IMG/VR virus record: IMGVR_UViG_3300046559_000483
Coordinates: 1 to 42,545 of that record
Length of the DNA: 42,545 bases
Reading direction: 5' to 3' (one strand)
Source of the DNA: a virus
This document shows, in pieces, positions 2,182 to 16,799 of the stretch. The first letter of the stretch is position 1. Each line of letters begins with the position of its first letter. The translations under genes were made by a program, and so were the position numbers. Below the pieces are notes generated by a model. That model ran no database searches. It saw only the letters and a program-made list of their open reading frames with translations, and was not told the origin of the DNA.

Positions 2182-2706
2182 ATGGCCACGGCCACGCAGA
2201 AGCGCGTATGTAAGCACAGCACCAAGGCTGGCCATCCGTGTAGGGCAACCCCACTCAAGAACAGCGACTACTGCCTGGCGCATACCGACGAGGAAACGCG
2301 GGCTAGCCACGGCTTTGGCGGTAGCGAGAACGGGTCCAAGGGCGGCCGGCCACGTAAGCCGCGTGTCGTGGATGTGATCCTGGCGCAGATAGAGGAGCGC
2401 GCAGACGCGATCTTTGCCGGCCTGTGGGAGATGACCACGGCCACCAAGTGGGTCTACAGCGGCGGCGACAGCCCGGCCATGGAGGTGCCCGACTACACCA
2501 CACGGCTGGCGGCATACCGCGAACTGCTGGACCGCGGCTATGGCAGGCCCAAGCAGGCCGGCGAGCTGACGATCATCACAGAGAGCGAGATAGACCGAGA
2601 GATCCGCAGACTGGAGGCGCAGCTTGACCAGCAGAACGGTGGAGCTGGACCCGGCGATCCCGCCGCAGAAGCTAGAGCGCTACCAGCACCTACGCCGGCA
2701 GGTTGA
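2182..2706 (+). CDS. Terminase small subunit
   Basis: A 174-residue protein placed directly before the large terminase. The N-terminus holds a probable zinc motif (CKH...HPC...YCLAH, residues ~10-35), followed by a basic Gly-rich stretch (GGRPRKPR) and a helical region with YRELLDRGYGRPKQ, typical of phage small terminases that recognise packaging DNA. The C-terminus is acidic and then Ala/Pro-rich. The start has no ribosome-binding site but sits 7 nt after a TAGCCT hexamer, so it is probably leaderless. It overlaps the large subunit gene by 83 nt. Confidence 0.75.
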   Translation: MATATQKRVCKHSTKAGHPCRATPLKNSDYCLAHTDEETRASHGFGGSENGSKGGRPRKPRVVDVILAQIEERADAIFAGLWEMTTATKWVYSGGDSPAMEVPDYTTRLAAYRELLDRGYGRPKQAGELTIITESEIDREIRRLEAQLDQQNGGAGPGDPAAEARALPAPTPAG

Positions 2707-3961
2707 GGCCAACTGGCAGCCCGCGGGCAGGGCACGGCTAGAGCCGCATCAGATCCCGCCGGCCCAGCCCTGGCATCTTTGGCTGCTCGAGGGCGGCCGT
2801 GGGTGCGGCAAGACGGAGGCGTGCGCGCGGTACTTCGCCAGGTACATGCGGGCCAACGCCGGCCATAGGGGTCGCATCGTGGCGCCTACCTTCGGCGATG
2901 CCGTTGAAGCGTGCATCGAGGGGCCTAGCGGCCTGCTGGCCATGGATCCCGACATACGCTGGCTGCCCAGCTCGCCGGGTGGTGCCAAGGTCGTGTGGCC
3001 CAACGGCAGCGAGGCGTTGGTGTTCGGCACGCCGTTCCCCCGCGATATAGACCGCTTCAAGGCCGGCGGGAACCGGCACATCGACTGGTGGGAGGAGATG
3101 GCGGCCAACACGCAGCTGGCAAAGGCGTGGGACCAGGCGGCACTCGGCTTGCGCCTGGGAGAGCACCCGCACAGCATCGCGTCGACCACGCCGCGCGGCA
3201 CGGGCGACTACCGGGCGATCCGCAAGATGCCCGACGTGGTGCGCACGCACGCCACGCTGTTCGACAACCCGCACAACCCCAGCGAGTGGGTGGAGCGGAT
3301 GCGGGCGCGCTACGAAGGCACGCGGCTGGGCCGCCAGGAACTTGCCGGCGAACTGCTAGACGATGCCCTCGGTGCCCTGTGGAGGCGCGAGCTGTTCGAC
3401 GATCGGGCAGACACGCCGCCCACGCTGGTGCGTGTGGTGGTGGCCATAGACCCGGCGGCTACAAGCGGAGAGGACGCAGATGACACGGGCATCGTGATAG
3501 CCGGCCTGGGAGCAGACGGCCACGGCTACGTGCTGGCCGACCGCACGTGCCACCTACCGCCCGACCAGTGGGCTAGGCGCGTGCACGCCGCCTACGAGGA
3601 GTTCAGCGCCGATCGTGTGGTAGCCGAGGTCAACAACGGCGGCGAGATGGTGGGCGTGGTGCTGAAGACGACAGAGACCGGCATGGCCTACAAGTCGATA
3701 CACGCCAGCCGCGGCAAGGCCATCAGAGCCGAGCCTGTAGCCGCCCTCTATGAACAGGGCAAGGTGCACCACGTGGGCGCCTTCCCGCACTTGGAGGACC
3801 AGTGCTGCCAGTGGGTGCCGGGCGAGGGAGAGGACAGCCCAGACAGGCTAGACGCGCTCGTTTGGGCTATAACTGACCTAATGCTGGCAGGTGGCCCCGG
3901 CCAAGTGCTTGTGGCGCAAGGTAGGATTCCTGGTGTGAAAGCTCAGCGGGGTCGGTGGTGA
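2624..3961 (+). CDS. Terminase large subunit (packaging ATPase-nuclease)
   Basis: A 445-residue protein with both terminase domains. The ATPase shows Walker A GGRGCGKT (57-64) and a Walker-B-like HIDWWEE (152-158), then a STTPRG coupling-type motif near 187. The RNase-H-like nuclease shows acidic residues in AIDPA (D276), VVAEVNNGG (E335) and DRLDALVWA (D410). It translocates DNA into proheads and cuts the concatemer. TTG 2624 is chosen because GGAGG lies 7 nt upstream. GTG 2639 is the main alternative. Either start lies inside the small-subunit gene, so the two are probably translationally coupled. Confidence 0.9.
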   Translation: MTSRTVELDPAIPPQKLERYQHLRRQVEANWQPAGRARLEPHQIPPAQPWHLWLLEGGRGCGKTEACARYFARYMRANAGHRGRIVAPTFGDAVEACIEGPSGLLAMDPDIRWLPSSPGGAKVVWPNGSEALVFGTPFPRDIDRFKAGGNRHIDWWEEMAANTQLAKAWDQAALGLRLGEHPHSIASTTPRGTGDYRAIRKMPDVVRTHATLFDNPHNPSEWVERMRARYEGTRLGRQELAGELLDDALGALWRRELFDDRADTPPTLVRVVVAIDPAATSGEDADDTGIVIAGLGADGHGYVLADRTCHLPPDQWARRVHAAYEEFSADRVVAEVNNGGEMVGVVLKTTETGMAYKSIHASRGKAIRAEPVAALYEQGKVHHVGAFPHLEDQCCQWVPGEGEDSPDRLDALVWAITDLMLAGGPGQVLVAQGRIPGVKAQRGRW

Positions 3962-4155
3962 GCGACCACCTAGACCAACTGCGCCAGCTGGCCAAAGAGC
4001 CGCCCGTAACGCACGGGCTGCCCGACCATCTGCGCAAGCTGCACAGACGGGTCATGGAGCACACGCGGCAGGAACGCGCCAGACCACAGGCAACCGATGA
4101 TGAAGGCCGGCGCTGGGGACCAGCGGGCGGTACACGCAAGCACAGGAGCGGATAA
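3958..4155 (+). CDS. Small basic hypothetical protein
   Basis: GTG 3958 overlaps the terminase stop (GTGA); GTG 3955 is also possible. The 65-residue product is strongly charged, with a helical first half (SDHLDQLRQLAKE, DHLRKLHRRVMEH) and an Arg/Gly-rich tail. No family is recognised. Its place between terminase and structural genes suggests a packaging or head accessory role, but nothing in the sequence shows it. Confidence 0.5.
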   Translation: MSDHLDQLRQLAKEPPVTHGLPDHLRKLHRRVMEHTRQERARPQATDDEGRRWGPAGGTRKHRSG

Positions 4156-4799
4156 TGTCAGGCACGAAAGACAACGCAGAGCGGCTGCTGGCGCTCCTAA
4201 ACGGCCCGCCGTCGGTTAGTGGCCTTGGGAACCTCAGGCAGGCAGAAAACGAAGGCTCGGCCGCACGCAGCAACGCCGACTGGCTGGGCGTGCCCATCCT
4301 CGACGAGGCGATGGTGGCAACGGAAAAAGGCACCACGAGCGCGATCCCGGTGCAGATCGGTGACGTCTTCTCCAAGATCCTGCTCCCGTTCGGGAAAACG
4401 TCCGGCAAAAAAGTGGAAAAGGCGTACTGCGCCCTCTACGCCGGCAAAAAAGACGGCGCGCTGCTCGCGCAGTCTAAAGAAGCCAACCTCGTGGAAACGG
4501 CGAAAAAAGAAACCACGCTGCCGTTCACGCTGGAAAGCGCGGTCACGATCACCAGCGCGATGGCGCCCAACGGCTACATCTACGCCCAGTTCGGCTCCGA
4601 AACAGAAACCATGCCCACGGGCATCGGCTGGACGCTCTCGGCGGAAGCCCAGGCGTCGTGGGCGGCCGTGTCGGCTGCCTCGGTGATGGGCCTTGGCGGC
4701 AAAGCAAGCAAAGCCCTGAAAGGCAAAGCCGACGCGAAACTAGGCGAATCGGAAGCCTTCGCGGCGGTCGCGAACGTCATCTGCTTCATCCTGCAATAG
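4155..4799 (+). CDS. Beta-rich structural-type protein, unknown
   Basis: A 214-residue protein whose ATG overlaps the previous stop (TAATG), with AGGAGCG upstream. Residues ~60-160 alternate hydrophobic strands and short turns (KVEKAYCALYAG, LPFTLESAVTITS, YIYAQFGSE), resembling the jelly-roll or adhesin-like domains of phage tail and head-decoration proteins. Lys and Glu are coded almost only by AAA and GAA, unlike the terminase and portal genes on either side but like the inserted domains and fibre genes downstream. I suspect an acquired surface or fibre protein. Assignment is by fold-like pattern only. Confidence 0.5.
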   Translation: MSGTKDNAERLLALLNGPPSVSGLGNLRQAENEGSAARSNADWLGVPILDEAMVATEKGTTSAIPVQIGDVFSKILLPFGKTSGKKVEKAYCALYAGKKDGALLAQSKEANLVETAKKETTLPFTLESAVTITSAMAPNGYIYAQFGSETETMPTGIGWTLSAEAQASWAAVSAASVMGLGGKASKALKGKADAKLGESEAFAAVANVICFILQ

Positions 4800-4847
4800 C
4801 CCCGGCCCCGCGTGCCGGCGCGATAAGGCCGGCGGAAGGGAGGGCAG

Positions 4848-5156
4848 GTGCAGGGCGAGCTACTACGACGAGACGTGCACCCGGCGGAGGTGCTGTTTCC
4901 TGATGGCCGGTTCGTCAAGGACGCGCGTGCGTTCGTGACGAGCCACCGGCTGATCGTGTGGCAGCGCGACGGCCCTAGCAAGATGCACGAGATGCTGCTG
5001 GCCGAGCCCTTCAGCGTCGAAGCCCGGCGCGGCACGCTGGGCGGCAGCCTCGAGGTGGAGACGTCCGAGGGCACGGTGCACCTGAGCCGTGGCTACGGCT
5101 GCGGCTGCGGGTCGCCGCTGCTGGCCCTGGCGCCGCCGGTTGGGTGGACGGGATGA
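4848..5156 (+). CDS. Hypothetical protein with Cys-rich tail
   Basis: GTG 4848 follows a good ribosome-binding site (GGAAGGGAGGG). The 102-residue product has an alternating-strand pattern (HRLIVWQRD, FSVEARRGTL, LEVETSEGTVHL) reminiscent of a small PH-like or beta-barrel domain, and ends with CGCGSPL, a possible metal or lipid site. It starts a tightly coupled run of small genes up to the portal gene. Confidence 0.5.
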   Translation: MQGELLRRDVHPAEVLFPDGRFVKDARAFVTSHRLIVWQRDGPSKMHEMLLAEPFSVEARRGTLGGSLEVETSEGTVHLSRGYGCGCGSPLLALAPPVGWTG

Positions 5157-5338
5157 GGTGGAGGCACGGCATATATGCTGTGCTAACGCTGGCGGTCGGC
5201 TTCTCTCTCGGTGCGTTTGCCTATACGGGCAGCGCCCTGTGGGCTCTATCGGGCGCCCTGCTTGCGTTGGCCTCGGCGCTGTACGACGCCGGTGAACCTC
5301 AGCCGGGAGATCCGCCCAAGCAGAGGTGGACGGGATGA
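5153..5338 (+). CDS. Two-pass small membrane protein
   Basis: A 61-residue protein from ATG 5153, overlapping the previous stop by 4 nt. Two hydrophobic segments (IYAVLTLAVGFSLGAFAY and LWALSGALLALASALY) are joined by a short turn and followed by a Pro-rich polar tail. The two-helix hairpin is compatible with a holin-like or other envelope protein, but it lies far from the lysis genes, so I make no functional call. Confidence 0.5.
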   Translation: MRWRHGIYAVLTLAVGFSLGAFAYTGSALWALSGALLALASALYDAGEPQPGDPPKQRWTG

Positions 5339-5547
5339 GCGACACGCTGATCATGGCCCTGGCCACGGCCATCCACCAAGAGGTGCACGGTACGCGGTTC
5401 GAGGCCTGCCCCGACTGCGTGCGTGCCGCCGGGCGGGTGCACCGCCACCTGCAGGGCCTGGGCTACCGTGCCGGCCTGCCCGACGAACTGCCGGGGCTGT
5501 GCGAACACGCAGAGCACATCGTCTACCCGCAGCTACTCGGCAGATGA
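5335..5547 (+). CDS. Small Cys/His protein, unknown
   Basis: A 70-residue protein starting at ATG 5335 (ATGA overlap). It contains CPDC, then HRHL and CEHAEH, spacing that could bind one zinc ion. The length and coupling fit a small phage accessory protein. No family is recognised. Confidence 0.5.
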   Translation: MSDTLIMALATAIHQEVHGTRFEACPDCVRAAGRVHRHLQGLGYRAGLPDELPGLCEHAEHIVYPQLLGR

Positions 5548-5551
5548 GGGT

Positions 5552-5722
5552 ATGTCGCGGCGAGCCTTCATGCGCGTCCTCGTTGCCGAGGCGCGCAGCT
5601 CGCTGCGGCGTGGTAGGCGGCGCATGGGCAAGCGGTGGGATGAGTGGGGCTGGCGCCGCGACGAACGTAGGCTGCTGCGGGGCTACCGCGGCAGTAACGG
5701 CAGGCGGCGGATGAGGAGCTGA
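5552..5722 (+). CDS. Small Arg-rich protein
   Basis: A 56-residue, strongly basic protein (blocks RRGRRRMGKR, RRDERRLLRGYR) from ATG 5552, with GATGAGGG upstream as a weak ribosome-binding site. Its stop overlaps the next ATG (TGATG). A competing frame from ATG 5544 has the same length but a composition unlike a folded protein, so I prefer this one. The charge suggests nucleic-acid contact. Confidence 0.45.
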   Translation: MSRRAFMRVLVAEARSSLRRGRRRMGKRWDEWGWRRDERRLLRGYRGSNGRRRMRS

Positions 5723-6087
5723 TGCTCACCCCGGTCATCCTCACGGCCAGCTTCCGCAAGGCCGACGGCACGTATGCCGGCGGCTACCTGATCGCCACGC
5801 TCTCAGAGCCGATCGTCAACGGCACCGAGGAGGTCGACACTACGCCGCTGCGGGGCCAGCTAAACGCCGAAGGCGAACTCGTGAACATGCGCGGCGACCC
5901 ATTCATCCTGGTGGCGAACGAGGACCCCGGCACGGAACCCGTTGGCACCGCCTACGAGATCACGCTGCAACTGGATGGAGAGGCTGTGCGCTCCTTCTGG
6001 ATCAAAGTGCCTACGCCGCTACCGCCGGGAGAAGGAGAAGAACCCAAGCCGGCCACCATCGACCTAGCGGAACTGGAGACGCCATGA
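5722..6087 (+). CDS. Phage structural beta-domain protein
   Basis: A 121-residue protein starting at ATG 5722, one base into the previous stop. The pattern F-x-x-ADGTYAGGY...TLSEPIVNGTE...L-x-A-x-G...EDPGTEPVGTAYEITLQLDG...SFWIKVP is that of a beta-sandwich domain found repeatedly in actinophage minor tail and fibre proteins. It probably forms part of a virion surface or connector. Its site between terminase and portal, far from the tail genes, is unusual. Confidence 0.55.
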   Translation: MLTPVILTASFRKADGTYAGGYLIATLSEPIVNGTEEVDTTPLRGQLNAEGELVNMRGDPFILVANEDPGTEPVGTAYEITLQLDGEAVRSFWIKVPTPLPPGEGEEPKPATIDLAELETP

Positions 6088-6413
6088 CCCACGCCTGGTG
6101 GTGGCTCATCGTGGACGCCCTAGCGGTCTACCGGCTCACGGTGCTGGTAACGCGCGACGGCGCGACCGAGGGCCTGCGCAAGCGGCTGGGCCGGCCGTGG
6201 CAGATCAAGGACATGACGGGCGTGATGCTGACGCGCCCCGGCGCAGGGCTGCGCTACTGGCTATGGCAGATGTGCCTGTGCTCATGGTGCACCTCGGTAT
6301 GGGTCGCGCTGGGCGCGGTGCTACTAACGCGCTTCTGGCCCAGCGGCTGGCAGTACCCGGCGCTGGTGCTGGCCTTGTCAGGTGTGGCCGGGTATCTGGA
6401 GGAGCGGCGATGA
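6084..6413 (+). CDS. DUF1360-like membrane protein
   Basis: A 109-residue protein, ATG overlapping the previous stop by 4 nt. Features are an N-terminal hydrophobic segment with YRLTVLVTRD, a central CLCSWCTSVWVAL motif and a C-terminal hydrophobic segment. The RLTxLVTRD plus CxxCxSxW arrangement matches the DUF1360 family common in phages of Gram-positive bacteria. The function of the family is unknown; it is expected in the membrane. Confidence 0.6.
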   Translation: MTHAWWWLIVDALAVYRLTVLVTRDGATEGLRKRLGRPWQIKDMTGVMLTRPGAGLRYWLWQMCLCSWCTSVWVALGAVLLTRFWPSGWQYPALVLALSGVAGYLEERR

Positions 6414-6658
6414 CCGACACCGAGCGGCGCATTCTGCAGTATGTGGCACGCACCAGCGAGAGCAAGCCCTACGCACCCGGCGGCTGGGTCGTCTACGCCG
6501 TGCCGGTGCGCACAGACGGCAGCCAGGCGTGGGAGTGGGACGCCTATAAGCCGCTGGTGGAGCGCGGCCTGCTCAATCGCGGCGAGGACTGGAAGAACAT
6601 CTACTTGCGACTGACCGACGCCGGCTGGCGCGCACTCAGCAAGACTAAGGTCGGCTGA
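6410..6658 (+). CDS. Small winged-helix-like protein
   Basis: An 82-residue protein from ATG 6410 (ATGA overlap). The N-terminal helix (TERRILQYVAR), a middle helix (AYKPLVERGLLNR) and the final LRLTDAGWRALSK give the same order as the protein at 1540-1791, suggesting a winged-helix fold. Function unknown. Its stop overlaps the portal ATG. Confidence 0.45.
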   Translation: MTDTERRILQYVARTSESKPYAPGGWVVYAVPVRTDGSQAWEWDAYKPLVERGLLNRGEDWKNIYLRLTDAGWRALSKTKVG

Positions 6659-9600
6659 TGGCCCCGTGGTTCGGCAAACGCCAGAAGCAGCAGGGCATAC
6701 GTGTCCTGACTGCGGCCGGCAAGCGTATAGACGTAGGCGATCGTCACGAGGCGATGGTCATGCGCGCGTTGCGCCAGGGCTGGCAGGCCGACGCCTGGAA
6801 CTACTGGGCCAGCATCGGTGAGATCCACTACGCCGTGAAGTTCTTGGCCAACTGCGCCGCGCGGATGCAGCTCTACACGGCCGCCTACCCTAACGAAGGG
6901 GAGACGGACAAACCGGCGCCGCTGGCCGAGGTGGCTGGCATACCGCCCGAGGTTGCGTCCATAGCCGAGCAGGCGATGCTCGAGCTAGGGCACGGCAAGC
7001 TGGCGCTGGGGCAGATCATGGCGGCGCTCAGCACCAACACGAGCGTGGCCGGCGAGTCGTGGCTGGTGGGCATACCCGACCCGGTCACAGGCGAGCCGCA
7101 GTGGAAGGTGCGCTCGGTCCACGAAATCGTCATCAAGGACGACCGCTGGACGCTGCGGGAGGTGCCGGCCGACGCACAGGGCATCATCCCGTGGATCACG
7201 CTGGACCCGCGCACTACGGTGCTCTCGCGCATCTGGACGCCCTCGCCGCAGTTCAGCAAGCTGGCCGACAGCCCGATGCGGGCGATGCTGGACGACTGTG
7301 AGAGCCTGCTGATCCTGCGCCGCATGATCCGCGCCGAGGGCCGCTCGCGTCTTGCCACCGCCGGCATCCTGGTCGTGCCCAACGAGCTGTCGATCAAGGC
7401 GCCAACAGACGACAACGCCGACCCACAGGCTGACCCGTTCATGGGGCCGCTGGCTGAAGCGATGATGGAGCCGATCGCGGATGAGGGCGTGGCGTCGGCC
7501 GTGGTGCCCATCGTGGTGCGTGGGCCTGTCGAGGCAGCCAAGGAGCTGCGGCACATAGACATGGCGCGTAGCTTCGATGCCGAGGCGGGCAAGCTGCGCG
7601 AAGAGCTAATCGGCATCATCGCCACGAGCTTCGACCTGCCCAAGGAGGTCATCACGGGCATCGTGGACCTCAACCATTGGAGTGCGTGGCAGGTAGACGA
7701 CAACACCTTCCGCCATCACGTAGAGCCGCACGTCATCGAGTGCTGCGACAGCCTCACGGCCGCATACCTGCGCCCCTACCTCGAAGCCGCTGGTGTAGAC
7801 GCCACGCTGGCCCGGCGCGTCTGTATTTGGTACGACGCCACCGAGCTGGTCACGCATCCCGATCAGACGAAGGATGCGCTGGACCTGCACGACCGCCTGG
7901 TGATCAGTGACGAGGCCCTGCTGCGCGTGGCCGGGTTCGAGGCCGCCGACAAGCCCGGCAAGCCCGAGTTGCAGGTGCGGCTGCTCGAGAAGATGCGGAC
8001 ATGGCCACCTAACCTCGTGATGGCCTTCCTCCACGCTTGGGATCCCACGCTGGTGGCGCCGTCCATGACCGGCCCGCCCGCGATCCCCGGCATAGGCCCC
8101 GGTGGCGTGGAGGCCCCCGAACCACCCCCCGGCACGCCTCCCGCGGCCGGCGCAGCCCCCTCTCCGCCGGCACAGCCGGGGGGTGGACTCCCTTCGCCGG
8201 CCACGGCACCGCCGGGGCACAACGGCACGCCGCCGATGCAACGGCAACTGCCGGCGCCGCCCACGACGGCCAGCGGCGGGTTGGAGGCCGTCGCTACTGT
8301 GCTGGCCGCAGACCCAGAGCGGGCAGAGCAACTGCTGGAGCTGCTGGCCCATGCGCCCATCGCGCACAAGGCTGACGCGGCTGCGCCCGGCGAAGGCTCC
8401 ACAGCGCCCGAAGGTGCCAGCGAAGAAGTGCCCACTGAACCCGTGACGCTGACGCCCGAAGAAACGGAACAGGCCGAAGCGGCGCTGCGGGAATACGAAA
8501 CCAAGACGGACGCCGAACGGGAAAAAGAACGAGAAGAAGCCGAAAAGGCAGGCGAACCGGAACCGGGTGACGCACCGCCCACGGCACCACCAGGCGGCAC
8601 GATCCAGGACCTCCACCCGCGCATACAGCGCGAATGGGCACAGCGGGCCACGCGCGGCGCCAAGCAGCGCCACCACGCCAAGCCCAAGGCCCACAAGGGC
8701 GAGAAACGAGGCAAGGGCGGGCGCTTCGAGCCGCTAACGGCCGCCGGCAAGCGCCGCGGCAAGGGCCTGCGCACGTCACAGCGCCTGGTCGCCATAGACC
8801 AGGACCTGCGCGCCCGGCTGCAGGTGGCGGCCAATGCGGCGATGCTGCGGCAGCTAGAACGCGCCGGCCAGCGCCTGCGCAAGAGCGTGGCGCGCGACGA
8901 GCGGGCGCGCGGGAAGATTGCGCACAAGTCGACCTATCTTGTGGCGGCGGCTCTTGGTCCAGCTGGGGTCGCCGCCACAGGGCTCACACCCACGGACCTG
9001 CTGGGCCGCGACTGGAACGGGCTTAAGGCCCAGTTCGAGGAGTGGGTTGCCGCAGCCCAGCAGCAGGCCGTGCGGCTGGCCCTCGGCCTGGTAGACCCGC
9101 CCAAGGAGGTCGTGAAGGCAGCCGAAGCCCGGCTCGAGGAGCAGCGCGCGCTCGCCTGGCGATCGCTGGCCGCCGAGCTATCGCAGCTGGCCGAACGCCT
9201 GCTCTACCACCCGCACCCCGACGACGAAGGGCCGGCCAACCCAAACACGCTGGTGCCGACGGGCGTGCTGCGCCGTGCGCTGGCCATTGCCGGCGGGGCC
9301 AAGCCGCGTGTCCTGACCGCTGCAGGCGAGGGCGAAGTGAATGAAGGCGCCGTGGCAACGATGCCCACGGAGGGCGTGGACGTGGTGCTGGCCGGCGACG
9401 AACCCAGCGAAGGCGGCAGCGTGTCGGTGGGCGTGGGCCAGATCGGCACGGGCGAAGCGGTGGGCGACCTGATCGAAGCCGGCGGCGGCGGGCAGGAGGG
9501 CTGGGAATGGGTGCATGGCCCGGCGCTCAACCCCTTCGAGCCGCACGTGGACCTGGATGGCACGACGTTCGTCTCTTTCGACGACGAAGCCCTAGCCAAC

Positions 9601-10119
9601 ACGGGCGACTTCCCAGACAACGAGTTCTACATGCCGGGCGACCACGATGGCTGCACGTGCGACTACATGCCGGTGCTGCTGGCGCCCGACGAAGTGCCAG
9701 CAGCCGAAGGGGGACCAAGTTGGGAGGACGCGGTGGCGATGGTGGCACAGGCCAACGAGGGCACGTCCTATGGTACGGCCAACGCCGAGGTCCATGCGGC
9801 ATCAACGACAACCGACCACCCGCAGTTCTTCTACCATCAGAGCAAGGCCAGCAACCGAGAGTCGATCGACGCCACAGGGCTTGAGGCCAATCGATCTCTC
9901 GGCGGCAAGACGACTCGCATATACCTTGCGGAAGAGCGGCCCGTGTTGGTGGCTCGCAGTGACAGCGCCCCGAAAGACCTCTACCGAATTGACACCGCTG
10001 GCCTGCCCCTGCGACCCGACCCAGAGCTGCCCGGCAAGTGGGCCATAGCTGAACAGGACATTGCTGCTGCCCGCCTCAATCTCATAGGCACAACACACCC
10101 CGACGGTCTGCCGGGGTAA
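6658..10119 (+). CDS. Portal-MuF-ADP-ribosyltransferase fusion protein
   Basis: A 1153-residue protein, far longer than a portal alone (about 450-550). Residues ~20-470 are portal-like (WNYWASIGEIHYAVKFLA near 48, IIATSFDLPKEVI near 320). Residues ~470-540 are Pro/Gly-rich, and ~570-650 form an acidic linker rich in GAA codons. Residues ~660-1010 are a MuF-type head morphogenesis region ending in WVHG, FEPHVDLDG, FVSFDDEAL and GDHDGCTCDYMP. Residues ~1055-1145 look like an ADP-ribosyltransferase or KptA-like domain (FFYHQS with H1060, TTRIYLAEE, LYRIDTAGLPLRPDP, WAIAEQDI). LTAAG motifs at 17-21, 693-697 and 886-890 lie at domain borders. DNA passage, head assembly and possibly delivery of the enzyme are the expected roles. 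Confidence 0.8.
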   Translation: MAPWFGKRQKQQGIRVLTAAGKRIDVGDRHEAMVMRALRQGWQADAWNYWASIGEIHYAVKFLANCAARMQLYTAAYPNEGETDKPAPLAEVAGIPPEVASIAEQAMLELGHGKLALGQIMAALSTNTSVAGESWLVGIPDPVTGEPQWKVRSVHEIVIKDDRWTLREVPADAQGIIPWITLDPRTTVLSRIWTPSPQFSKLADSPMRAMLDDCESLLILRRMIRAEGRSRLATAGILVVPNELSIKAPTDDNADPQADPFMGPLAEAMMEPIADEGVASAVVPIVVRGPVEAAKELRHIDMARSFDAEAGKLREELIGIIATSFDLPKEVITGIVDLNHWSAWQVDDNTFRHHVEPHVIECCDSLTAAYLRPYLEAAGVDATLARRVCIWYDATELVTHPDQTKDALDLHDRLVISDEALLRVAGFEAADKPGKPELQVRLLEKMRTWPPNLVMAFLHAWDPTLVAPSMTGPPAIPGIGPGGVEAPEPPPGTPPAAGAAPSPPAQPGGGLPSPATAPPGHNGTPPMQRQLPAPPTTASGGLEAVATVLAADPERAEQLLELLAHAPIAHKADAAAPGEGSTAPEGASEEVPTEPVTLTPEETEQAEAALREYETKTDAEREKEREEAEKAGEPEPGDAPPTAPPGGTIQDLHPRIQREWAQRATRGAKQRHHAKPKAHKGEKRGKGGRFEPLTAAGKRRGKGLRTSQRLVAIDQDLRARLQVAANAAMLRQLERAGQRLRKSVARDERARGKIAHKSTYLVAAALGPAGVAATGLTPTDLLGRDWNGLKAQFEEWVAAAQQQAVRLALGLVDPPKEVVKAAEARLEEQRALAWRSLAAELSQLAERLLYHPHPDDEGPANPNTLVPTGVLRRALAIAGGAKPRVLTAAGEGEVNEGAVATMPTEGVDVVLAGDEPSEGGSVSVGVGQIGTGEAVGDLIEAGGGGQEGWEWVHGPALNPFEPHVDLDGTTFVSFDDEALANTGDFPDNEFYMPGDHDGCTCDYMPVLLAPDEVPAAEGGPSWEDAVAMVAQANEGTSYGTANAEVHAASTTTDHPQFFYHQSKASNRESIDATGLEANRSLGGKTTRIYLAEERPVLVARSDSAPKDLYRIDTAGLPLRPDPELPGKWAIAEQDIAAARLNLIGTTHPDGLPG

Positions 10120-10140
10120 GCCCGTACCATAGGAGGCACC

Positions 10141-12279
10141 ATGAGCCAGAAGACACGCACCGAGCTGATCGCCTCCTACGGGTACGGCGACGAGGCGGCC
10201 AGCCTGGCCGAGGCGCCCGCGCCGCCCAACCCCGAGCCCGCCGAGGCCGGCGACGAGGGCCAGATCCTTGCCGCCATCGAAGCCGCCATCGCCGCACAGG
10301 AAGCAGACGAGGATGTGGCCACGGACCCAAACGACGCCAAGACCTTGGACCTGTTGAAGCAGGCACTGGAGGCACACCTAGCGGACGTGGCAGCAGAGGC
10401 CCCACAAGCGGCGCCTCCCGCCAAGGCAGCACCGCCCGTGGGCACCCCTAAAGGGCCGGCCAAGCCAGCGGCGCACGCAGCGGCTGGCGTGTGCACGATG
10501 TGCGGCGGCAGCGGCAAGACGAGCGAGGGCAAGGTCTGCGCGATGTGCAACGGCAGCGGCAAGCTAGCCCTGACGCCCGGCCCGGAGGCGCCGGGGAAAG
10601 CCAAGATGCCAACCCAAGCACAGGCCGACAAGAAAGGCCCGGAAAACGGCGACGTCTGCCAGAACCAGGACTGCGGGCACACGGCCGCGATGCACGCCAA
10701 CGAACAGGGCGGCGACAACGTAGGCGCGTGCACGGCGCCGGACTGCAAGTGCCCGAACTTCCAGACGGAAGAAGAAGCGTCGTCCGGTGAACCCGGCACG
10801 CCCAACCTGCAGGCAGCCATGCCCGGCACACCGCCTGGCGCGGCGCCCACCGAGGGCGAGCCCAAGACGCAGCAGAACGCACCGCCGCCAGTCGAAGGAG
10901 GAGAAAACATGGGCGCATCGTTCGTCATTCCCGTGGGCATCATCGAGGGCCAGGAGACGGGCGACGGCAGGATGATCGCGCCGGGCGCCCTCACGTGGCG
11001 CGAGCCGCCGATGCCGCTCATGCTGCTCACGACCAGCCCGCACGACCCCAGCGGCATGTCGCCCAACGACCCGGCTGTGATCGCCGGCCGCATCGACAGC
11101 CTCGAGCGCGTCGACGGCGAGGGCGGCACGCAGGTGATCTGCGCCAAGGGCTTCTGCCTGCCCAACGAGGACGGCCAGCAGCTGGCGCAGCTCTGCGAGT
11201 CGATGGGCCGGCTGGGCGTTAGCGGCGACGTGGCCGTGGACGCCACCGAGATCACGGGTGTGGAGATGGACCCGGATATGCCGGGCCTGCCGCTGAACAT
11301 GAACGAGCAGATCACCGAGGGCACCATCATGGGCTTCACGGCCTGCCCGTTCCCGGCGTTCGAGGGCGCCTACATGGTGCTGGGCGACGGCACCGAGGAG
11401 GCGCCCGCGGCCATAGCGCAGCGCAGCCCCGAGAAGTCGGCGGAAGCCAAGCAGACGCCGCCCCTGGCCGCCTCAATCCACTTCATGGCTTACGAGGAGT
11501 GCGTGCCCTGCCAGGAGGGCTTCGACATCATCACGGCGGCCGGTGGCCCGGTGCGCCCGCCCGCGGCGTGGTTCGCAGACCCGGACTTCGTGGTGGGAGA
11601 CGACCGGCTGGTGGAGATCCTGGACAAGCGCGGCAACGGCGACGCCTACGCCTGCCCGCTCACCGTCACCGAGGATGGCCGGGTGTACGGGCACATCGCC
11701 CCGTGGGGCGTCTGCCACACCGGCAAGCTCGGCACGTGCGTGACGGCGCCGCACACGACCACCGACTACGCCTACTTCCGGCTGGGCGAGATCCAGACGG
11801 CCGAGGGCGAGCACATCAAGGTGGGCAAGCTGACGGCCGACGTAGGCCACGCCACCACACAGCCGGGCGTCATGGGCTTCACGGCTCCCGAGGCGATCGC
11901 CCACTACGACAACAGCGCCCTGCAGGTGGCCTACGTAAACATCGGCGAGGACGAGTTCGGCATCTGGGTGGCCGGCGCCGTGGCGCCCACGGCCACCGAA
12001 GAGCAGGTGCAGAAGCTCCGGGCATCGAGCATCAGCGGCGACTGGCGCGGCATCGGCGGCAAGCCTGAGCTGGTGGCGGCCCTGTGCGTGAACCAGCCGG
12101 GCTTCCCGCTGGCCGTCGTGGCGCACGGGCAGCAGGCGCTGGTGGCTGCCGGCGCGTCGGTGATGGCGCACCTGAAGGACCCGCGGCCCAGCGCCACGGG
12201 CCTGCCTCAGTGGGCCGAGGGTCCGCTGCTCGAGCTGGCCGCGCAGCGTGCGCGCGAGCGCGTGCAAGCACTCGGCTAA
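10141..12279 (+). CDS. Capsid maturation protease with zinc-finger extension
   Basis: A 712-residue protein preceded by AGGAGG. Residues 1-256 are an Ala/Pro-rich extension with two DnaJ-type repeats (CTMCGGSG at 118-125, CAMCNGSG at 133-140) and a second Cys/His cluster (C173, C178, H180, H185, C197, C202, C204). Residues ~258-435 resemble prohead proteases of actinophages (SPHDPSG, AGRIDSLERV, GVSGDVAVDATE). After IITAAGG (463-469), residues ~470-685 match the conserved second half of these proteins (PPAAWFADP, GRVYGHIAPWGVCH, TDYAYFRLGE, AIAHYDNSAL, GIWVAGAVAP, SGDWRGIGG). It should cleave scaffold and capsid precursor during head maturation. A strong internal start at 10909 could yield a 456-residue form lacking the zinc region. 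Confidence 0.75.
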   Translation: MSQKTRTELIASYGYGDEAASLAEAPAPPNPEPAEAGDEGQILAAIEAAIAAQEADEDVATDPNDAKTLDLLKQALEAHLADVAAEAPQAAPPAKAAPPVGTPKGPAKPAAHAAAGVCTMCGGSGKTSEGKVCAMCNGSGKLALTPGPEAPGKAKMPTQAQADKKGPENGDVCQNQDCGHTAAMHANEQGGDNVGACTAPDCKCPNFQTEEEASSGEPGTPNLQAAMPGTPPGAAPTEGEPKTQQNAPPPVEGGENMGASFVIPVGIIEGQETGDGRMIAPGALTWREPPMPLMLLTTSPHDPSGMSPNDPAVIAGRIDSLERVDGEGGTQVICAKGFCLPNEDGQQLAQLCESMGRLGVSGDVAVDATEITGVEMDPDMPGLPLNMNEQITEGTIMGFTACPFPAFEGAYMVLGDGTEEAPAAIAQRSPEKSAEAKQTPPLAASIHFMAYEECVPCQEGFDIITAAGGPVRPPAAWFADPDFVVGDDRLVEILDKRGNGDAYACPLTVTEDGRVYGHIAPWGVCHTGKLGTCVTAPHTTTDYAYFRLGEIQTAEGEHIKVGKLTADVGHATTQPGVMGFTAPEAIAHYDNSALQVAYVNIGEDEFGIWVAGAVAPTATEEQVQKLRASSISGDWRGIGGKPELVAALCVNQPGFPLAVVAHGQQALVAAGASVMAHLKDPRPSATGLPQWAEGPLLELAAQRARERVQALG
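10896..10911 (+). promoter_or_regulatory. Internal ribosome-binding site and in-frame ATG in the protease gene
   Basis: AAGGAGGAG lies a few nucleotides before ATG 10909, which is in frame (codon 257) and immediately precedes the protease domain. This is one of the strongest ribosome-binding sites in the window. It would make a short protease without the zinc extension. Confidence 0.55.
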
Positions 12280-12494
12280 ACGCCCTCGCACAAAGTCTCG
12301 GCGGATCGCTGTCAAGCGAACATTTATGTTGGCTTGCTAGTGCGGTTTTCGGCTGCGGGGTTTCCGCAAAGGCCCTGCAAAGGCACAAAGTCCAGAATCG
12401 GCGTTTAGTAGAATTCGTGTACGGCGCGGAAGAAGTTACCCGCCGTGCGGACCTTGACAACTGCATAGCCCGAGCGCTGAAAGGAGGGCCAGCC
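12280..12494 (+). promoter_or_regulatory. Intergenic region with candidate promoter for the metallohydrolase
   Basis: This 215-nt gap is less GC-rich than its surroundings. It holds GCACAAAGTC twice (12290-12299 and about 12383-12392), a TAGAAT -10-like hexamer at 12409-12414, and TTGACA at 12454-12459. The TTGACA has no good -10 partner 17 nt on. AAAGGAGGG at 12481-12489 is the ribosome-binding site of the next gene. I see no gene in the gap. The promoter call is a pattern match only. Confidence 0.35.
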
Positions 12495-13058
12495 ATGGCC
12501 CGTGACAGCCAGCGGTCGAAGGTGTACGCAGCGGAGCGTGCCGCGTTCCCGCAGCGCAACGAAAACCTGACCACCGCAGAGGCGCAGGCGATAATCGACA
12601 AGTGGTCGTCCAGCGCCTACCTACGCAAGCGCTACCCACGTGCTGCGTACCCACTGGAAGTACGCGATGGCCGCGGTCGCAGGAACGCCGCCTACCTGGG
12701 GCACTACAGCCCGAGCGAAAACGGCTACCTAAGCCACGGCCGCTACGCCATTGCGATACCGAAGTGGGGGCGCTCCAAGTGGGTGCTAGCCCACGAGTTC
12801 GCGCATCACCTCGTCGGCATGAGGGATGGTGCGTGGCACGACTGGAAGTTCGTCGAGGCATATCTGTACGTCGTGCGGGTGTTCCTCGGCAAGGGCACTG
12901 AAGAGACGCTCAAGGCCGAGATGAAGGCCCGGCGCGTGAAGTGGCGCAAGCCAGTGAAGCGCCAGATGACGGACGAGCAACGGCAGGCTGCCCGCGAGCG
13001 AATGCTCGCGATGCACGCCACCGGAGCACTCAGCAAGAAGAACGGCCCCGACGCCTAA
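12495..13058 (+). CDS. Zinc metallohydrolase, TIGR04338-like
   Basis: A 187-residue protein from ATG 12495 after AAAGGAGGG. It begins RDSQRSKVYAAE, the signature opening of the TIGR04338 putative metallohydrolases of mycobacteria and their phages. It contains HEFAHHL (H100, E101, H104) with a probable third ligand in AWHDWKF (H115). The N-terminal half has strands preceding the active helix (AAYLGHY, YAIAIPKWG); the C-terminal half is basic and helical. The fold suggests a peptidase, but no substrate of this family is known to me. It lies between the maturation protease and the capsid gene. Confidence 0.75.
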   Translation: MARDSQRSKVYAAERAAFPQRNENLTTAEAQAIIDKWSSSAYLRKRYPRAAYPLEVRDGRGRRNAAYLGHYSPSENGYLSHGRYAIAIPKWGRSKWVLAHEFAHHLVGMRDGAWHDWKFVEAYLYVVRVFLGKGTEETLKAEMKARRVKWRKPVKRQMTDEQRQAARERMLAMHATGALSKKNGPDA

Positions 13059-13074
13059 ACGCCGAGGCCGCAAC

Positions 13075-13326
13075 CTACCCTACACACACGCAGAATGATA
13101 GCCGCTCGGGCTGTGCAGTTGTTTGGTCTGCGCTACGGCGCCCGGCGTCGGGACGCACCGCCGCCCGGCGGTCTGTGCCCAGCCGGCGCTCGACCTCGGC
13201 CAGCGCCACCAGCCACTCGCCGGTCGCCCGGTGGGCCAGCTCCTCGGTTGGATTGGTCTCTAGCGGTCTCATGGCGGGCATCCCGCGCAGAACCTCGAGC
13301 GCATCACCGGCGATGATCTCAGCCAC
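13075..13326 (-). CDS. Small hypothetical protein, second gene of a minus-strand pair
   Basis: GTG at 13326-13324 overlaps the stop of the upstream minus-strand gene by 8 nt (GTGGCTGA). The 83-residue product has a helical middle (ELAHRATGEWLVALAEVERRLGTD) and an Arg/Ala-rich tail. No family is recognised. It converges with the metallohydrolase gene with only 16 nt between stops, and no hairpin terminator is visible there. Confidence 0.45.
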   Translation of the reverse strand: MAEIIAGDALEVLRGMPAMRPLETNPTEELAHRATGEWLVALAEVERRLGTDRRAAVRPDAGRRSADQTTAQPERLSFCVCVG

Positions 13327-13498
13327 GGGTAGCCTCTGGCCACACCACGCCATCGGTCTCGGCTGCGGCCTTGATGGCCTCCCGCATGCAGGCGTCCTTG
13401 GCCTTCTCTGCGTCGCCGAAGTGATCGACCCACACCTCGGCGTTGTAGGCTCGCCAGGCGTCGCGTATGGCTGCGGGGCTGGGGCTGGGGCTAGGCAT
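13319..13498 (-). CDS. Small hypothetical protein, first gene of a minus-strand pair
   Basis: ATG at 13498 follows a good ribosome-binding site (GAAGGAGGC on the minus strand), giving 59 residues. After a PSPSPS start the product is one helical stretch with AWRAYNAEVWVDHFGDAEKAKDACMREAIKAA split by short turns; only its Trp and Asp/His content is distinctive. A TAAGAT hexamer (13533-13528) upstream is a plausible -10. Function unknown. It opposes the surrounding structural genes. Confidence 0.5.
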   Translation of the reverse strand: MPSPSPSPAAIRDAWRAYNAEVWVDHFGDAEKAKDACMREAIKAAAETDGVVWPEATRG

Positions 13499-13654
13499 CG
13501 TGGCCTCCTTCGGGTTCGGGTCTGCACATCTTAGCGCCACCCGTGCTACGCTTGCGACATCGGCGCCATAGGCGCAACGCCCCGCACAGTAGGCCATCGG
13601 CCCCGCGGAGCTTAGGTTCTACATACCTTTCGAGCACCGAAGGAGCCGATCACG
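13499..13654. promoter_or_regulatory. Divergent promoter region before the major capsid gene
   Basis: This 156-nt gap separates divergent genes. Leftward, TAAGAT (13533-13528) sits about 30 nt before the ATG at 13498. Rightward, TACGCT (13547-13552) and TAGGTT (13613-13618) are both TANNNT hexamers upstream of the capsid gene. Clear -35 boxes are missing. GAAGGAG at about 13639-13645 is the capsid ribosome-binding site. Strong capsid expression makes a dedicated promoter plausible. Confidence 0.4.
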
Positions 13655-15406
13655 ATGGATGCGATTCGCGAGCTGCTAGGACGGCTCAACGCGCTTACCG
13701 CGGAGGAGCTTGCGGACCTCCGTCAGAAAATCACAGAGGAGTTCAACGGCCTCGAGCCGGCCGACGGCGAGCAGGTAACGCCCGAGATCGCGCAGGCCAT
13801 GACCGAGCTACGCGAAGCCGCCGACCAGGTCCTGGCCGAGAGCGGCGCACGCGACGAGGCGCAGGCGGCGGCCGAACAGGCAGCCGAAGCGGCACGCGAG
13901 GGCGTGCGCGCGCTGGCGCCGCCCGAGGAGCCCGAGGCCGAAGCCGAGCCAGAAGAGGCAGAGCCCGAGCCCGAGGCAGAGCCGACGGGCGAGACCGAGG
14001 CAGAGGCCCCACAGCCCGAGCCCGTGGCCGCCAGCGGCCAGCGCCTCGCCAGGATGGCGCAGCGCCAGGCCAAGGCCGCGCCCAGCCCCGAGGTATCCGT
14101 GCCCGACACCAAGCGTGGCACGCTGGTAGCAGCTGGCTCGCTGTCAAGCTCGCTCCCACAGGGCAGCGAGATCCACACGCGCGGCGAGCTGGCCGAGGCG
14201 TTCTGCGACACGCTGCAGCGCCTCTCCCGGCAGGGGCCGGCTAAAGGCAACGTCCTAGTTGCCTCCTCGACGTTCGAGTACCCCGAGGAGCGGCGCCTGA
14301 CCGAGGACCCGTTCCGCAACACCGAGATGGTGCTGCGCGAGTGCGGGCCGGCGGCCAAAGGCATCGACCCGGCGACGGGCGCAGAGGCCCTCGTGGCGAC
14401 CGGCGGTATCTGCCTCCCGGTGAACGTCGACTACGCCGTGCCCACGTGGGCGACGGCGGAGCGGCCGGTGCGCGATGCGCTGCCGGCGTTCCAGGCGACC
14501 CGCGGCGGCATCCGCTTCGTCATCCCGCCGGACATCAGCACGTGGGAAGCCGCGACAGGGATCTGGACCGAGGCGACGGACGCCTCGCCGGGCGTCGAAG
14601 TGAAGCCCGTTGTGGCCCTGACGTGCGGGACCGAGGAACTCGTCTACGTCGAGGCCATCTCGACCCGGCTGGGCTTCGGCAACATGCAGAGCCGGTTCGC
14701 TCCCGAGCAGGTGGCGGCCAACACGGACGTGGCCATTGCGGCTGCGGCACGGGTGGCCGAGAACAACCTGCTCAACCTGATCGCAGAAACGTGCGTGAAA
14801 GGCGTCACGGCCGGCACGGCCTCGCAACTGGGCACGGTGCGGGAACTCCTATCCTCGGTGCTGCCGTTGCTCTGCAGCCAGCAGAAGCAGCTGCACAGGC
14901 TCTCCGACGACCAGGCGTTCTCGTTCATCCTGCCCCGCTGGCTCCGTAACGAGATCAAAGCGGACCTGGCCCGCGAGGCGGCGCACGTCTACGCACCGGG
15001 CCGCGATGCGCTGTGCGTATCGGACGCCGACGTGGACGCGCTGTTCGCGCCCTACAACGTGCGGCCGATCTGGCACTTCGACGGGCAGACGGCGGCGGTG
15101 GAAGGCGGCGTGAGCCAGATCTTCGTCGCCCCGGCCAAAGCGGCCATCAAGCCGTTCCCGACCAAAGTGGTGGGCTACTTCTTCGTCGAGGGGGCCATCC
15201 AGTTCCTCGACGCGGGACGGCTCGACCTCGGCGTGGTGCGCGACAGCACCCTGGACGCCACGAACGACTACGAGACGTTCGTGGAGACCTTCGAGGGCAT
15301 CGCGAAACGCAGCTACGCCAACGGCGCGCTCCAGACGGTGATGACCTTCGAGTCGACCGGCACGGCTGCGGCGCCCCTGGACATGAAAGGCAAACCGCCC
15401 GCCTGA
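13655..15406 (+). CDS. Major capsid protein with N-terminal scaffold (delta) domain
   Basis: A 583-residue HK97-type capsid precursor. Residues 1-~155 are acidic, Ala/Glu-rich and coiled-coil-like (LNALTAEELADLRQKI, then a long E/A/P stretch), as expected for a fused scaffold. TLVAAGS (156-162) marks the likely border to the shell domain. The shell region includes GGICLPVNVDYAVPTWATAE, RGGIRFVIPPDIS, a helix-rich AAAARVAENNLLNLIAE segment and a C-terminal FVEGAIQFLDAGRLDLGVVRDS, the conserved end of actinophage capsid proteins. The upstream maturation protease is expected to remove the scaffold. Ribosome-binding site GAAGGAG is present. Confidence 0.85.
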   Translation: MDAIRELLGRLNALTAEELADLRQKITEEFNGLEPADGEQVTPEIAQAMTELREAADQVLAESGARDEAQAAAEQAAEAAREGVRALAPPEEPEAEAEPEEAEPEPEAEPTGETEAEAPQPEPVAASGQRLARMAQRQAKAAPSPEVSVPDTKRGTLVAAGSLSSSLPQGSEIHTRGELAEAFCDTLQRLSRQGPAKGNVLVASSTFEYPEERRLTEDPFRNTEMVLRECGPAAKGIDPATGAEALVATGGICLPVNVDYAVPTWATAERPVRDALPAFQATRGGIRFVIPPDISTWEAATGIWTEATDASPGVEVKPVVALTCGTEELVYVEAISTRLGFGNMQSRFAPEQVAANTDVAIAAAARVAENNLLNLIAETCVKGVTAGTASQLGTVRELLSSVLPLLCSQQKQLHRLSDDQAFSFILPRWLRNEIKADLAREAAHVYAPGRDALCVSDADVDALFAPYNVRPIWHFDGQTAAVEGGVSQIFVAPAKAAIKPFPTKVVGYFFVEGAIQFLDAGRLDLGVVRDSTLDATNDYETFVETFEGIAKRSYANGALQTVMTFESTGTAAAPLDMKGKPPA

Positions 15407-15449: not shown

Positions 15450-16799
15450 ATGGCAGCGAACATGGCGATACCTGTACCGACCATCCCTCCACAGCCGCCG
15501 CAGCTCAGCCTGCTCAACAGTGCCGTCAGGCCCGACGATGCGACGGACCCGACGATCGGCACGGACCTGGAGCTTGTCTCCGGGGACCAGCAGGCTCTGC
15601 TGCGGGAACAGGTGCCGGACCTCTACGCGGAGCTACAGCGGCGGCAGGGCGAGGCGTGGGTAAGGGGCATTACTTATGCACCCTATTCCCACGCCGCCGC
15701 CGCTGTGCGCGACCCGTGCGACCTGACGTCGGTGGACCTGCCGGCGCTGCCGGCGCCGACCATCGAAAAAGCGGTGATCAAAGCAGGCGGCGCCCTAGCC
15801 GAAGAAGAATTCGAATACGTTGTAACCGCGATCAACGCCAACGGCGAGACTACGGCATCGGCCGTAGTAGCAGCCACGCCGGCCGGTGCCTCCAAATCCG
15901 TCACGCTGACGGTTTACAAGATCGGCTCGGCGGGCGTCAAATACCGCTTCTACCGCTGCAAAGCCGGCGTGAAAAAACCGCTGCGGATCAAAACGAAAGC
16001 GGTCACGGCCGTGAACCCGTACACGCCCGCGGGCGAAGGCACGACGTTCACGTGGACGGACATTGGCGAAGCAGAAGAAGCCGGCAAAGAAGCGCCCGCG
16101 GAAAACAAATCGGCGGGGCCGGGCGGCTACACCAACCTGGGTCTCATCACGGCGGTGCCCTACCTGATCCGCGTGACCGACCAGTGCTCGACGTTCGCCT
16201 TCGAGGCGCGCGACTTCAAGGGCCGCGCGCTGCGGCTGCTGGAGAACGCGCAGCACCAGGCGATCGAGAAGGAGTTCTGGACGGGCGCGCAGGCGATCAA
16301 ATCGACATGGCCCAACCACTATCTGGCCCAGGAAACGGGCCTGACCGAGCTGGAAGCCGGGAAAAAAGTGAGCCCTACGCGCGGGCTGCAGCTGCTACAG
16401 GATGCCCTCGACACCGGCTTCGGCGGCCAGGGCATGATCCACGTGCAGAAGCAGACGGCCACCAACCTCACAAAGGTGCGCCGGGTGGGCAGCATGATGC
16501 TCGACATGTTCGACAACATCGTGGTGCCAGGCGCGGGCTACCCCGGCACAGGCCCCGACAAAGGCGAAGGCGGCGGCGGCAAAGCACCGGGCGCCGGCTG
16601 CGCCTACATGTTCGCCTCAACGCTCGTGATGGTGCGGGCCGAGAAAGAGGGCACGGTGTTCCCCGACACCTTTGCCGAGGCCGTCGACTGGGGGCAGGGT
16701 GGGTTCCCCAACACGATCCGCTTCTACGCCGAGAAGTTCGCCGTGGCGTACCTGGACAACAGCGCGCGCTACTGCGTGGAAGTGAAACTCGAAGAATGA
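15450..16799 (+). CDS. Second capsid-associated structural protein with inserted beta domain
   Basis: A 449-residue protein following a strong AAAGGAGGG site. The parts before residue ~100 and after ~222 belong together and resemble a conserved actinophage protein encoded just after the capsid gene (DQCSTFAFEARDFKGRA, QGMIHVQKQTATNL, CAYMFASTLVMVRA). Residues ~103-222 are a fibronectin- or Ig-like insertion (FEYVVTAINANGET, SVTLTVYKIGSAGVKYRFYR). The insert uses almost only AAA and GAA codons, while the flanks use AAG and GAG. I infer an HK97-like or connector protein that displays an acquired surface domain. Confidence 0.6.
   Translation: MAANMAIPVPTIPPQPPQLSLLNSAVRPDDATDPTIGTDLELVSGDQQALLREQVPDLYAELQRRQGEAWVRGITYAPYSHAAAAVRDPCDLTSVDLPALPAPTIEKAVIKAGGALAEEEFEYVVTAINANGETTASAVVAATPAGASKSVTLTVYKIGSAGVKYRFYRCKAGVKKPLRIKTKAVTAVNPYTPAGEGTTFTWTDIGEAEEAGKEAPAENKSAGPGGYTNLGLITAVPYLIRVTDQCSTFAFEARDFKGRALRLLENAQHQAIEKEFWTGAQAIKSTWPNHYLAQETGLTELEAGKKVSPTRGLQLLQDALDTGFGGQGMIHVQKQTATNLTKVRRVGSMMLDMFDNIVVPGAGYPGTGPDKGEGGGGKAPGAGCAYMFASTLVMVRAEKEGTVFPDTFAEAVDWGQGGFPNTIRFYAEKFAVAYLDNSARYCVEVKLEE

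Follow-up and report, generated by a model that had tools for sequence, protein, structure and literature searches.

In the phage SPN3US, the head protease gp245 cuts the portal, the capsid, ejection proteins and itself after the motif A-X-E, which is present in several copies per propeptide (passages of PMC10052503). Microbacterium phages of cluster EA encode portal-MuF fusions and are described, in the part of the source drawn on here, as being without a maturation protease gene (PMC7302621). Here, we analyzed a stretch of viral DNA of 42,545 nucleotides (IMG/VR record IMGVR_UViG_3300046559_000483, positions 1 to 42,545; hereafter the window), which encodes a portal-MuF fusion, the precursor of a head maturation protease with an S78 domain and a further conserved domain (C-domain), and a major capsid protein precursor. 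A short motif with the consensus [SAV]-[LI]-[TV]-Ala-[Ala/Ser]-[Ala/Gly/Ser] recurs at domain borders in all three. From sequence comparison, we infer with good confidence that the head maturation protease of this actinophage-type family recognizes the motif and cuts there.

A sequence-only reading of the window had pointed to five such motifs, and a scan of the translations placed all of them correctly (portal 17, 693 and 886, protease 464 and capsid 157; motif positions denote the first residue of the pentamer). With the strict pattern [LIVMF][TV]A[AS][GAS], the same scan returned further matches at protease 667 (LVAAG), portal 761 (LVAAA, within MuF) and capsid 201 (LVASS), and looser forms were seen at capsid 124 (VAASG) and 247 (LVATG). 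Across 42 hand-picked likely open reading frames (ORFs) of the window (13,283 residues), the strict pattern occurred ten times, eight of them in the portal, protease and capsid proteins, whose combined share of the residues is about 18%. The frequency comparison between head and other proteins of related phages, as suggested in that reading, was extended to 16 annotated relatives. Their head set, comprising the portal, MuF, protease and capsid proteins recognized by profile (46 proteins, 32,627 residues), held 108 strict matches, compared with 8.0 ± 2.8 when each protein was shuffled, a larger excess than that of the other proteins (28 against 12.2). The narrower pattern [LI][TV]AAG proposed at the outset gave 26 matches against 0.8 in the head set and 7 against 1.5 elsewhere. 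The excess over shuffled proteins shows that Ala richness is no explanation. The codons differ among the motif sites, which rules out a DNA repeat as the cause and indicates that the constraint acts on the protein. The recurrence of the motif at borders is real and not a product of chance.

Relatives of the three proteins are found in cultured phage records (836 for the protease, 848 for the portal and 90 for the capsid), mostly of phages infecting Mycobacterium, Gordonia and Microbacterium. The sample consisted of 35 environmental loci obtained through the capsid, 80 listed through the protease, a few of which were shared with the first set, and 16 annotated phage regions. The start was complete in 57 of 62 portal ORFs, and 41 of these were non-redundant; in 32 of the 41, the strict pattern was present in the stretch before the portal core, against 0.3 after shuffling. 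Seven of the nine misses are off at one position (L040 VTAAV, L047 LTAAV, L056 LTSSA, L058 ITSSA, L071 LEASS, L077 LMASA and L086 LTAGG), one is off at two (L088 WAASA), and in locus L006 the motif, VLAASS, is displaced by an insertion. This long insertion before the core of the L006 portal ORF (2571-6245) has intein-like ends by eye (terminal YTGN) and gave no Pfam match. Between portal and MuF, the MuF part of the window protein being placed by alignment to relatives, 13 of 29 non-redundant segments carried the strict pattern (0.3 after shuffling). Together with the linker of the protease described below, these sites bear out the earlier expectation of conservation at borders. The exception is portal 885-891, which had likewise been taken for a border: it falls in a variable loop of MuF, and only the window and L009 carry it among 30 distinct MuF segments. 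A separate piece made of the MuF end with an ADP-ribosyltransferase is therefore not a general feature, and the site is ruled out as a general cut. As for the region itself, portal residues about 1015-1153 (window 9700-10116, + strand) have by eye the look of a small domain of the ADP-ribosyltransferase type, with no Pfam match. Separate MuF genes with the motif at residue 130-131 were found in Cinna (L037, 5574-6491), Ariadne (L038, 7578-8369) and Honeyfin (L041, 6918-7721).

In the protease precursor, which was compared across 119 proteins before and 79 after redundancy reduction, the strict pattern was present in 40 of the 79 linkers between the S78 domain and the C-domain (1.1 after shuffling) and in 69 of the 79 segments following the C-domain (1.8 after shuffling). 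The predicted structure of residues 250-688 consists of two confident domains and a linker, with a predicted local distance difference test score (pLDDT) below 50 at 439-453, 461-466 and 654-677, so the site at 464-468 is at the edge of one low-confidence stretch and that at 667-671 within another. The first of the two domains has a predicted assemblin-like fold. Structural comparison with VIA-align aligned it with T4 gp21 (Z 9.7, 123 residues, 3.3 Å) and with herpesvirus assemblins (Z 6.3-8.8), unrelated rows following from 5.6 down. With Foldseek alone, the Epstein-Barr virus protease came out on top, at an E value of only 0.02. The S78 profile PF04586 was matched by 11 of 46 members at E values up to 1 (best 1.1e-4), and in the alignment of all 46 both Ser361 and a loose pattern of His before GRID are kept. 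The protease gene matches several PHROGs (head proteins and proteins of unknown function), best over its C-terminal part. Its N-terminus, at residues about 117-141 (window 10489-10563, + strand), carries two CxxCxGSGK repeats resembling a DnaJ zinc finger (PHROG 3931, E 0.00041); a Cys/His cluster that many relatives retain comes next. A second, partial match to the S78 profile (E 1.7e-11) was located in the Cinna genome (MK937591.1, 45011-45340), in a frame of 186 residues far from the head genes.

For the capsid precursor, the predicted model (mean pLDDT 61.5) points to an HK97 fold preceded by an N-terminal helical scaffold domain, with helices within residues 2-87, low confidence at 91-157 and fold matches to HK97-fold capsids. 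A looser pattern was scored in 69 non-redundant capsids (113 before reduction) by its distance from the end of the segment at the shell core. Upstream of this anchor, 43 matches lay at 120-144 residues, 19 at 85-109 and 53 at 10-14. The window protein has its 124 site, which lies in a stretch of low predicted order, in the outer zone and its 157 site in the middle zone, and at 247, beside the core, a Thr replaces the Ala/Ser, leaving the pattern unmatched. The sequence-only reading had treated capsid 156-162 as the border of the delta domain and as a reference point for the others. A site is indeed there in many relatives; however, rival sites stand about 33 residues earlier and before the core, and one capsid subgroup (L024, L027 and L029) keeps the 124 site and is missing that at 157. 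Judging from the alignments, several candidate sites may thus compete for the mature N-terminus. For LittleE, the mature capsid is reported to start eight residues before GGYAVP (passages of PMC3706429). The GGYAVP string is absent from the Lucky2013 capsid. Among solved relatives, sequence matches did not help in locating the mature N-terminus (one set covered a C-terminal stretch only), and fold matches were distant.

To what extent the sites resemble one another was assessed with a seven-column matrix built from 40 portal N-termini only, which reads [SAV][LI][TV]A[AS][AGS], the threshold being the 95% level of shuffled segments; the scored segments come from related sequences and are not independent trials. 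With the portal matrix, the threshold was exceeded by 69% of the linkers (n = 72), 88% of the post-C-domain segments (n = 72), 48% of the pre-MuF segments (n = 29) and 86% of the capsid segments beside the core (n = 64), but by only 1% of the S78 interiors (n = 72) and 3% of the portal interiors (n = 40). At the third position, the 40 portal sites have Ala in 37, Ser in two and Asn in one, and no Glu was present at positions 3-6 among those shown. Outside the family, S78 proteases of the cluster-J type had no strict match in 28 distinct sequences (2.0 expected), the downstream ORFs taken as their capsid genes had three in 28 distinct sequences (2.6 expected), and the head proteins of Che8 and Lucky2013 had none in seven. 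The motif is specific to the head-protease family of the window.

In fused relatives, the motif is placed between domains. Jehoshaphat gp25 reads MuF, motif, 2H-phosphoesterase-like domain, motif, S78, motifs, an unknown stretch, motif, C-domain and motif, and phiSAJS1 gp17 reads motif, MuF, 2H-like stretch, S78, motifs, AbiEi-like helix-turn-helix (HTH), motif, C-domain and motif. In Geodirt gp16, the C-domain is followed by five motifs, an unknown stretch, one more motif and a 2H-like domain. MuF of phiSAJS1 is the only one of these Pfam matches to exceed its cut-off, and the 2H-like stretch of that protein was labelled by eye. In Geodirt and Tiamoceli, the 2H/RNA-ligase-like domain is part of the protein that carries the C-domain; in Arri it forms its own gene (gp20, L051 10122-10700), whose product begins M-TAAG, so that the gene split falls at the motif. 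The presence of the motif between the MuF, 2H-like, S78 and C-domains suggests a polyprotein, and, as far as the domain assignments go, MuF or portal appears joined to several further domains in the manner that defines polyvalent head proteins.

In the process that we propose, the protease, as part of a multi-domain precursor, would act after prohead assembly, removing a short, basic peptide from the N-terminus of the portal and separating the portal from MuF. Within its own precursor, it would cut on both sides of the C-domain, towards the S78 domain and towards the tail, and it would remove the coiled-coil delta domain and linker from the capsid protein. Herpesvirus assemblins cut at a consensus (V/L/I)-x-Ala|Ser, between the Ala and the Ser, a form that the window motif fits. 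By analogy, the cut bond would probably be after the first Ala, which is a guess. The predicted pieces would be a portal propeptide of residues 1-19 (2.2 kDa), the portal at 20-695 (72.6 kDa) and MuF with the C-terminus at 696-1153; protease pieces of 1-466, the C-domain at 467-669 (21.3 kDa) and the tail; and capsid pieces of 1-126, 127-159 and 160-583 (45.2 kDa).

Several observations weigh against this proposal or parts of it. The other 292 proteins of the 16 relatives (60,070 residues) also exceed shuffling with their 28 strict matches (12.2 ± 3.8 expected), a set that includes some MuF genes missed by profile, so the contrast with the head set is, if anything, understated. In the two outer capsid zones, the portal matrix gives a weak signal (17% and 30%, n = 64), and it passes the shuffled 95% level in 32% of C-domain interiors and 20% of capsid cores as well. 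Ala248, Gly250 and Gly251 are invariant in 21 capsids, so the inner capsid site may be structural, as may the post-C-domain site, which is at a domain edge. By analogy with LittleE, the capsid may be cut beside the core and not at 157, which constitutes the main doubt about the reference point. As for the enzyme, PF04586 gave no match in the window and none over cut-off in seven phage genomes; three of these are positive with our S78 profile, so the model is uninformative on the presence of S78. In addition, four Gordonia phages (Geodirt, Tiamoceli, GMA2 and Arri) keep the motif and the C-domain without a detectable S78 domain.

The edge positions and invariant residues just mentioned, along with the small excess in non-head proteins, are what an account in terms of ordinary structure would build on, whereby the motifs are strand or helix ends that look alike in Ala-rich proteins. 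We regard this as highly improbable, given that the portal N-terminal, pre-MuF and linker copies are outside folded domains at 10- to 100-fold over shuffled levels and that other S78 phages have no excess. A docking or encapsidation peptide, through which portal, MuF, protease and capsid would bind a common prohead partner and remain uncut, would account for the same sequence data, namely short conserved stretches in the flexible linkers of proteins brought together in the prohead. It is nevertheless unlikely in our judgment: several copies per protein, placed between the folded domains of the protease precursor and of the fused relatives, fit cutting better, small residues behind a hydrophobic pair suit a protease site, and the capsid would need the same peptide as its partners for binding. 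The cuts might also be ascribed to another enzyme, since a zincin-like metallopeptidase gene (about 12495-13058, + strand), whose translation holds HEFAHH, stands in the head operon between the protease and capsid genes, and a role in the processing of polyvalent proteins has been proposed for zincin-like peptidases (passages of PMC5512222). Its product had no Pfam match, and blastp against the ORFs of the window and 128 loci found it only in the window and the identical L001, while the motif is far wider; it is ruled out as a conserved cutter, and we give it next to no credence as the source of the cuts. The proposal of the sequence-only reading, a common site of the prohead protease, is retained for sites that are conserved at borders, specific to the family and, within the protease, placed in low-confidence linkers, and not for the one in the middle of MuF.

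The cutting domain may be either S78 or the C-domain. That the four Gordonia phages have kept the motif along with the C-domain, and no S78 domain was detected in them, suggests that the C-domain may be the cutter. Searched with the S78 profile, the complete genomes of Geodirt, GMA2 and Arri gave no match and that of Tiamoceli nothing beyond a 12-bit one on the minus strand, while those of Cinna, Honeyfin and KLucky39 were clearly positive. In Geodirt, the motif is found in the capsid and gp16, and its portal has the variant VTAAV. The C-domain keeps HY and SGDW in 46 of 46 aligned members, for which a catalytic role is a guess, and its predicted order of strand-strand-helix-strand-strand, with the Ser of SGDW in the third strand, repeats that of the S78 domain. 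By eye, GIWVAGALRP...LRAS..SGDWR...LELVAALAVNVPGFP in the C-domain parallels GLYVRGQLTP...EGMSVGF...LREISVCTFPAN in HK97 gp4. Profile comparisons with hhalign gave the C-domain 9.5% to HK97 gp4, 1.0% to 16 S78 proteases and 0.5% to the S78 domain, tests of low power, since the S78 domain itself reached only 11.3% and 1.3% against the first two targets. The NCBIfam HK97 proheadase model was matched by one of 46 members (E 0.17), searches of Pfam, NCBIfam and PDB sequences yielded no assignment, and the VIA-align fold comparison barely covered the domain. It is possible that the C-domain is a second protease and the reader of the motif. A broader conjecture, which we hold tentatively and rate as somewhat short of even, is that a large family of actinophages builds its heads from self-cleaving polyproteins and packages enzymes as free domains, with the C-domain as a second, HK97-like protease and constant reader, S78 as an optional part and a specificity of the herpesvirus assemblin type instead of the Glu type of T4 and SPN3US. 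One Ala-based, assemblin-like site would then separate portal, MuF, enzymatic cargo (2H phosphoesterase, HTH), protease and capsid inside the prohead.

The coordinates of the proteins, domains and candidate sites are collected in Table 1. The gene located 3' of the capsid gene (15450-16799, + strand) matches PHROG 779, whose function is unassigned (E 3.4e-11), and occupies the position of the annotated major capsid pentamer protein gene in TA17A, KLucky39, Sejanus and others.

Table 1. Head genes of the window with their domains and candidate cut sites (window coordinates).
Feature	Position	Strand	Remarks
Portal - linker - MuF - C-terminal region fusion, 1153 residues	6658..10119	+	PHROG 776 portal, E 1.3e-102, residues 11-521
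Portal residues 17-21, LTAAG, candidate cut site 5' of portal core	6706..6720	+	Strict pattern in 32/41 non-redundant portals
Portal residues 693-697, LTAAG, candidate cut site portal/MuF	8734..8748	+	13/29 pre-MuF segments
Portal residues 886-890, LTAAG, MuF loop	9313..9327	+	Conservation not found, 2/30 distinct segments
Head maturation protease precursor, 712 residues	10141..12279	+	Low-complexity, Cys-rich N-terminus, S78 domain, linker, C-domain, tail
S78/assemblin-like domain, protease residues 258-412, invariant Ser361	10912..11376	+	VIA-align, profile matches
Protease residues 464-468, ITAAG, candidate cut site S78 domain/C-domain	11530..11544	+	40/79 linkers
C-domain, protease residues 472-658, invariant His588 (HY) and Ser632 (SGDW)	11554..12114	+	Confident predicted fold; PHROGs of head proteins
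Protease residues 667-671, LVAAG, candidate cut site 3' of C-domain	12139..12153	+	Not listed in the sequence-only reading
Major capsid protein precursor, 583 residues	13655..15406	+	PHROG 777; N-terminal coiled-coil delta domain, linker, HK97-fold shell
Capsid residues 124-128, VAASG, outer candidate site	14024..14038	+	Not listed in the sequence-only reading
Capsid residues 157-161, LVAAG, middle candidate site	14123..14137	+	
Capsid residues 247-251, LVATG, inner-site variant beside shell core	14393..14407	+	

A literature search covering titles and the starts of abstracts, in which few subscription papers were included, returned no paper on the motif and no virion proteomics recognized as belonging to the family, and no cut site is named in the literature searched for these more than 800 cultured-phage relatives. 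A defined motif predicts the mature termini and which fused enzymes would be released in the head, and it makes the processing of polyvalent head proteins by an assemblin-like peptidase directly testable.

Among the described systems, SPN3US gp245 is similar in that one short motif is common to the portal, the capsid, other head proteins and the protease and is placed at propeptide borders. It differs in that the cut after Glu (A-X-E) was shown by mass spectrometry, according to passages of PMC10052503, while here the motif consists of Ala/Ser/Gly with no Glu and we infer cleavage. The window family has a motif common to portal, capsid and protease precursors, as in the T4/SPN3US type of specificity, and lacks the Glu at the presumed cut. 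Herpesvirus assemblins have a related fold and are freed from their own precursor (site roles in passages of PMC4498786); they are fused to the scaffold protein, whereas the S78 proteases of the window family have MuF or C-domain partners instead, and the passages drawn on describe no cutting of portal or capsid by assemblin. The removal of the delta domain by HK97/D3-type S78 proteases likewise concerns an N-terminal scaffold domain on an HK97-fold capsid, and there, as described in part of PMC12749128, a single capsid cut is made, unlike the several motif copies in three proteins and the portal-MuF fusion of the window. The polyvalent head proteins of Iyer et al. (2017) likewise join enzymatic domains to MuF or portal, and an assemblin-like peptidase has been put forward as the enzyme that processes them; the passages drawn on name no cleavage motif (PMC5512222), whereas the window family carries one between domains. 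On the evidence of the aligned sites, the motif of the window family is most likely a head-protease cut site of the Ala instead of the Glu type; if true, this would be a phage head protease with an apparent specificity like that of the herpesvirus assemblins.

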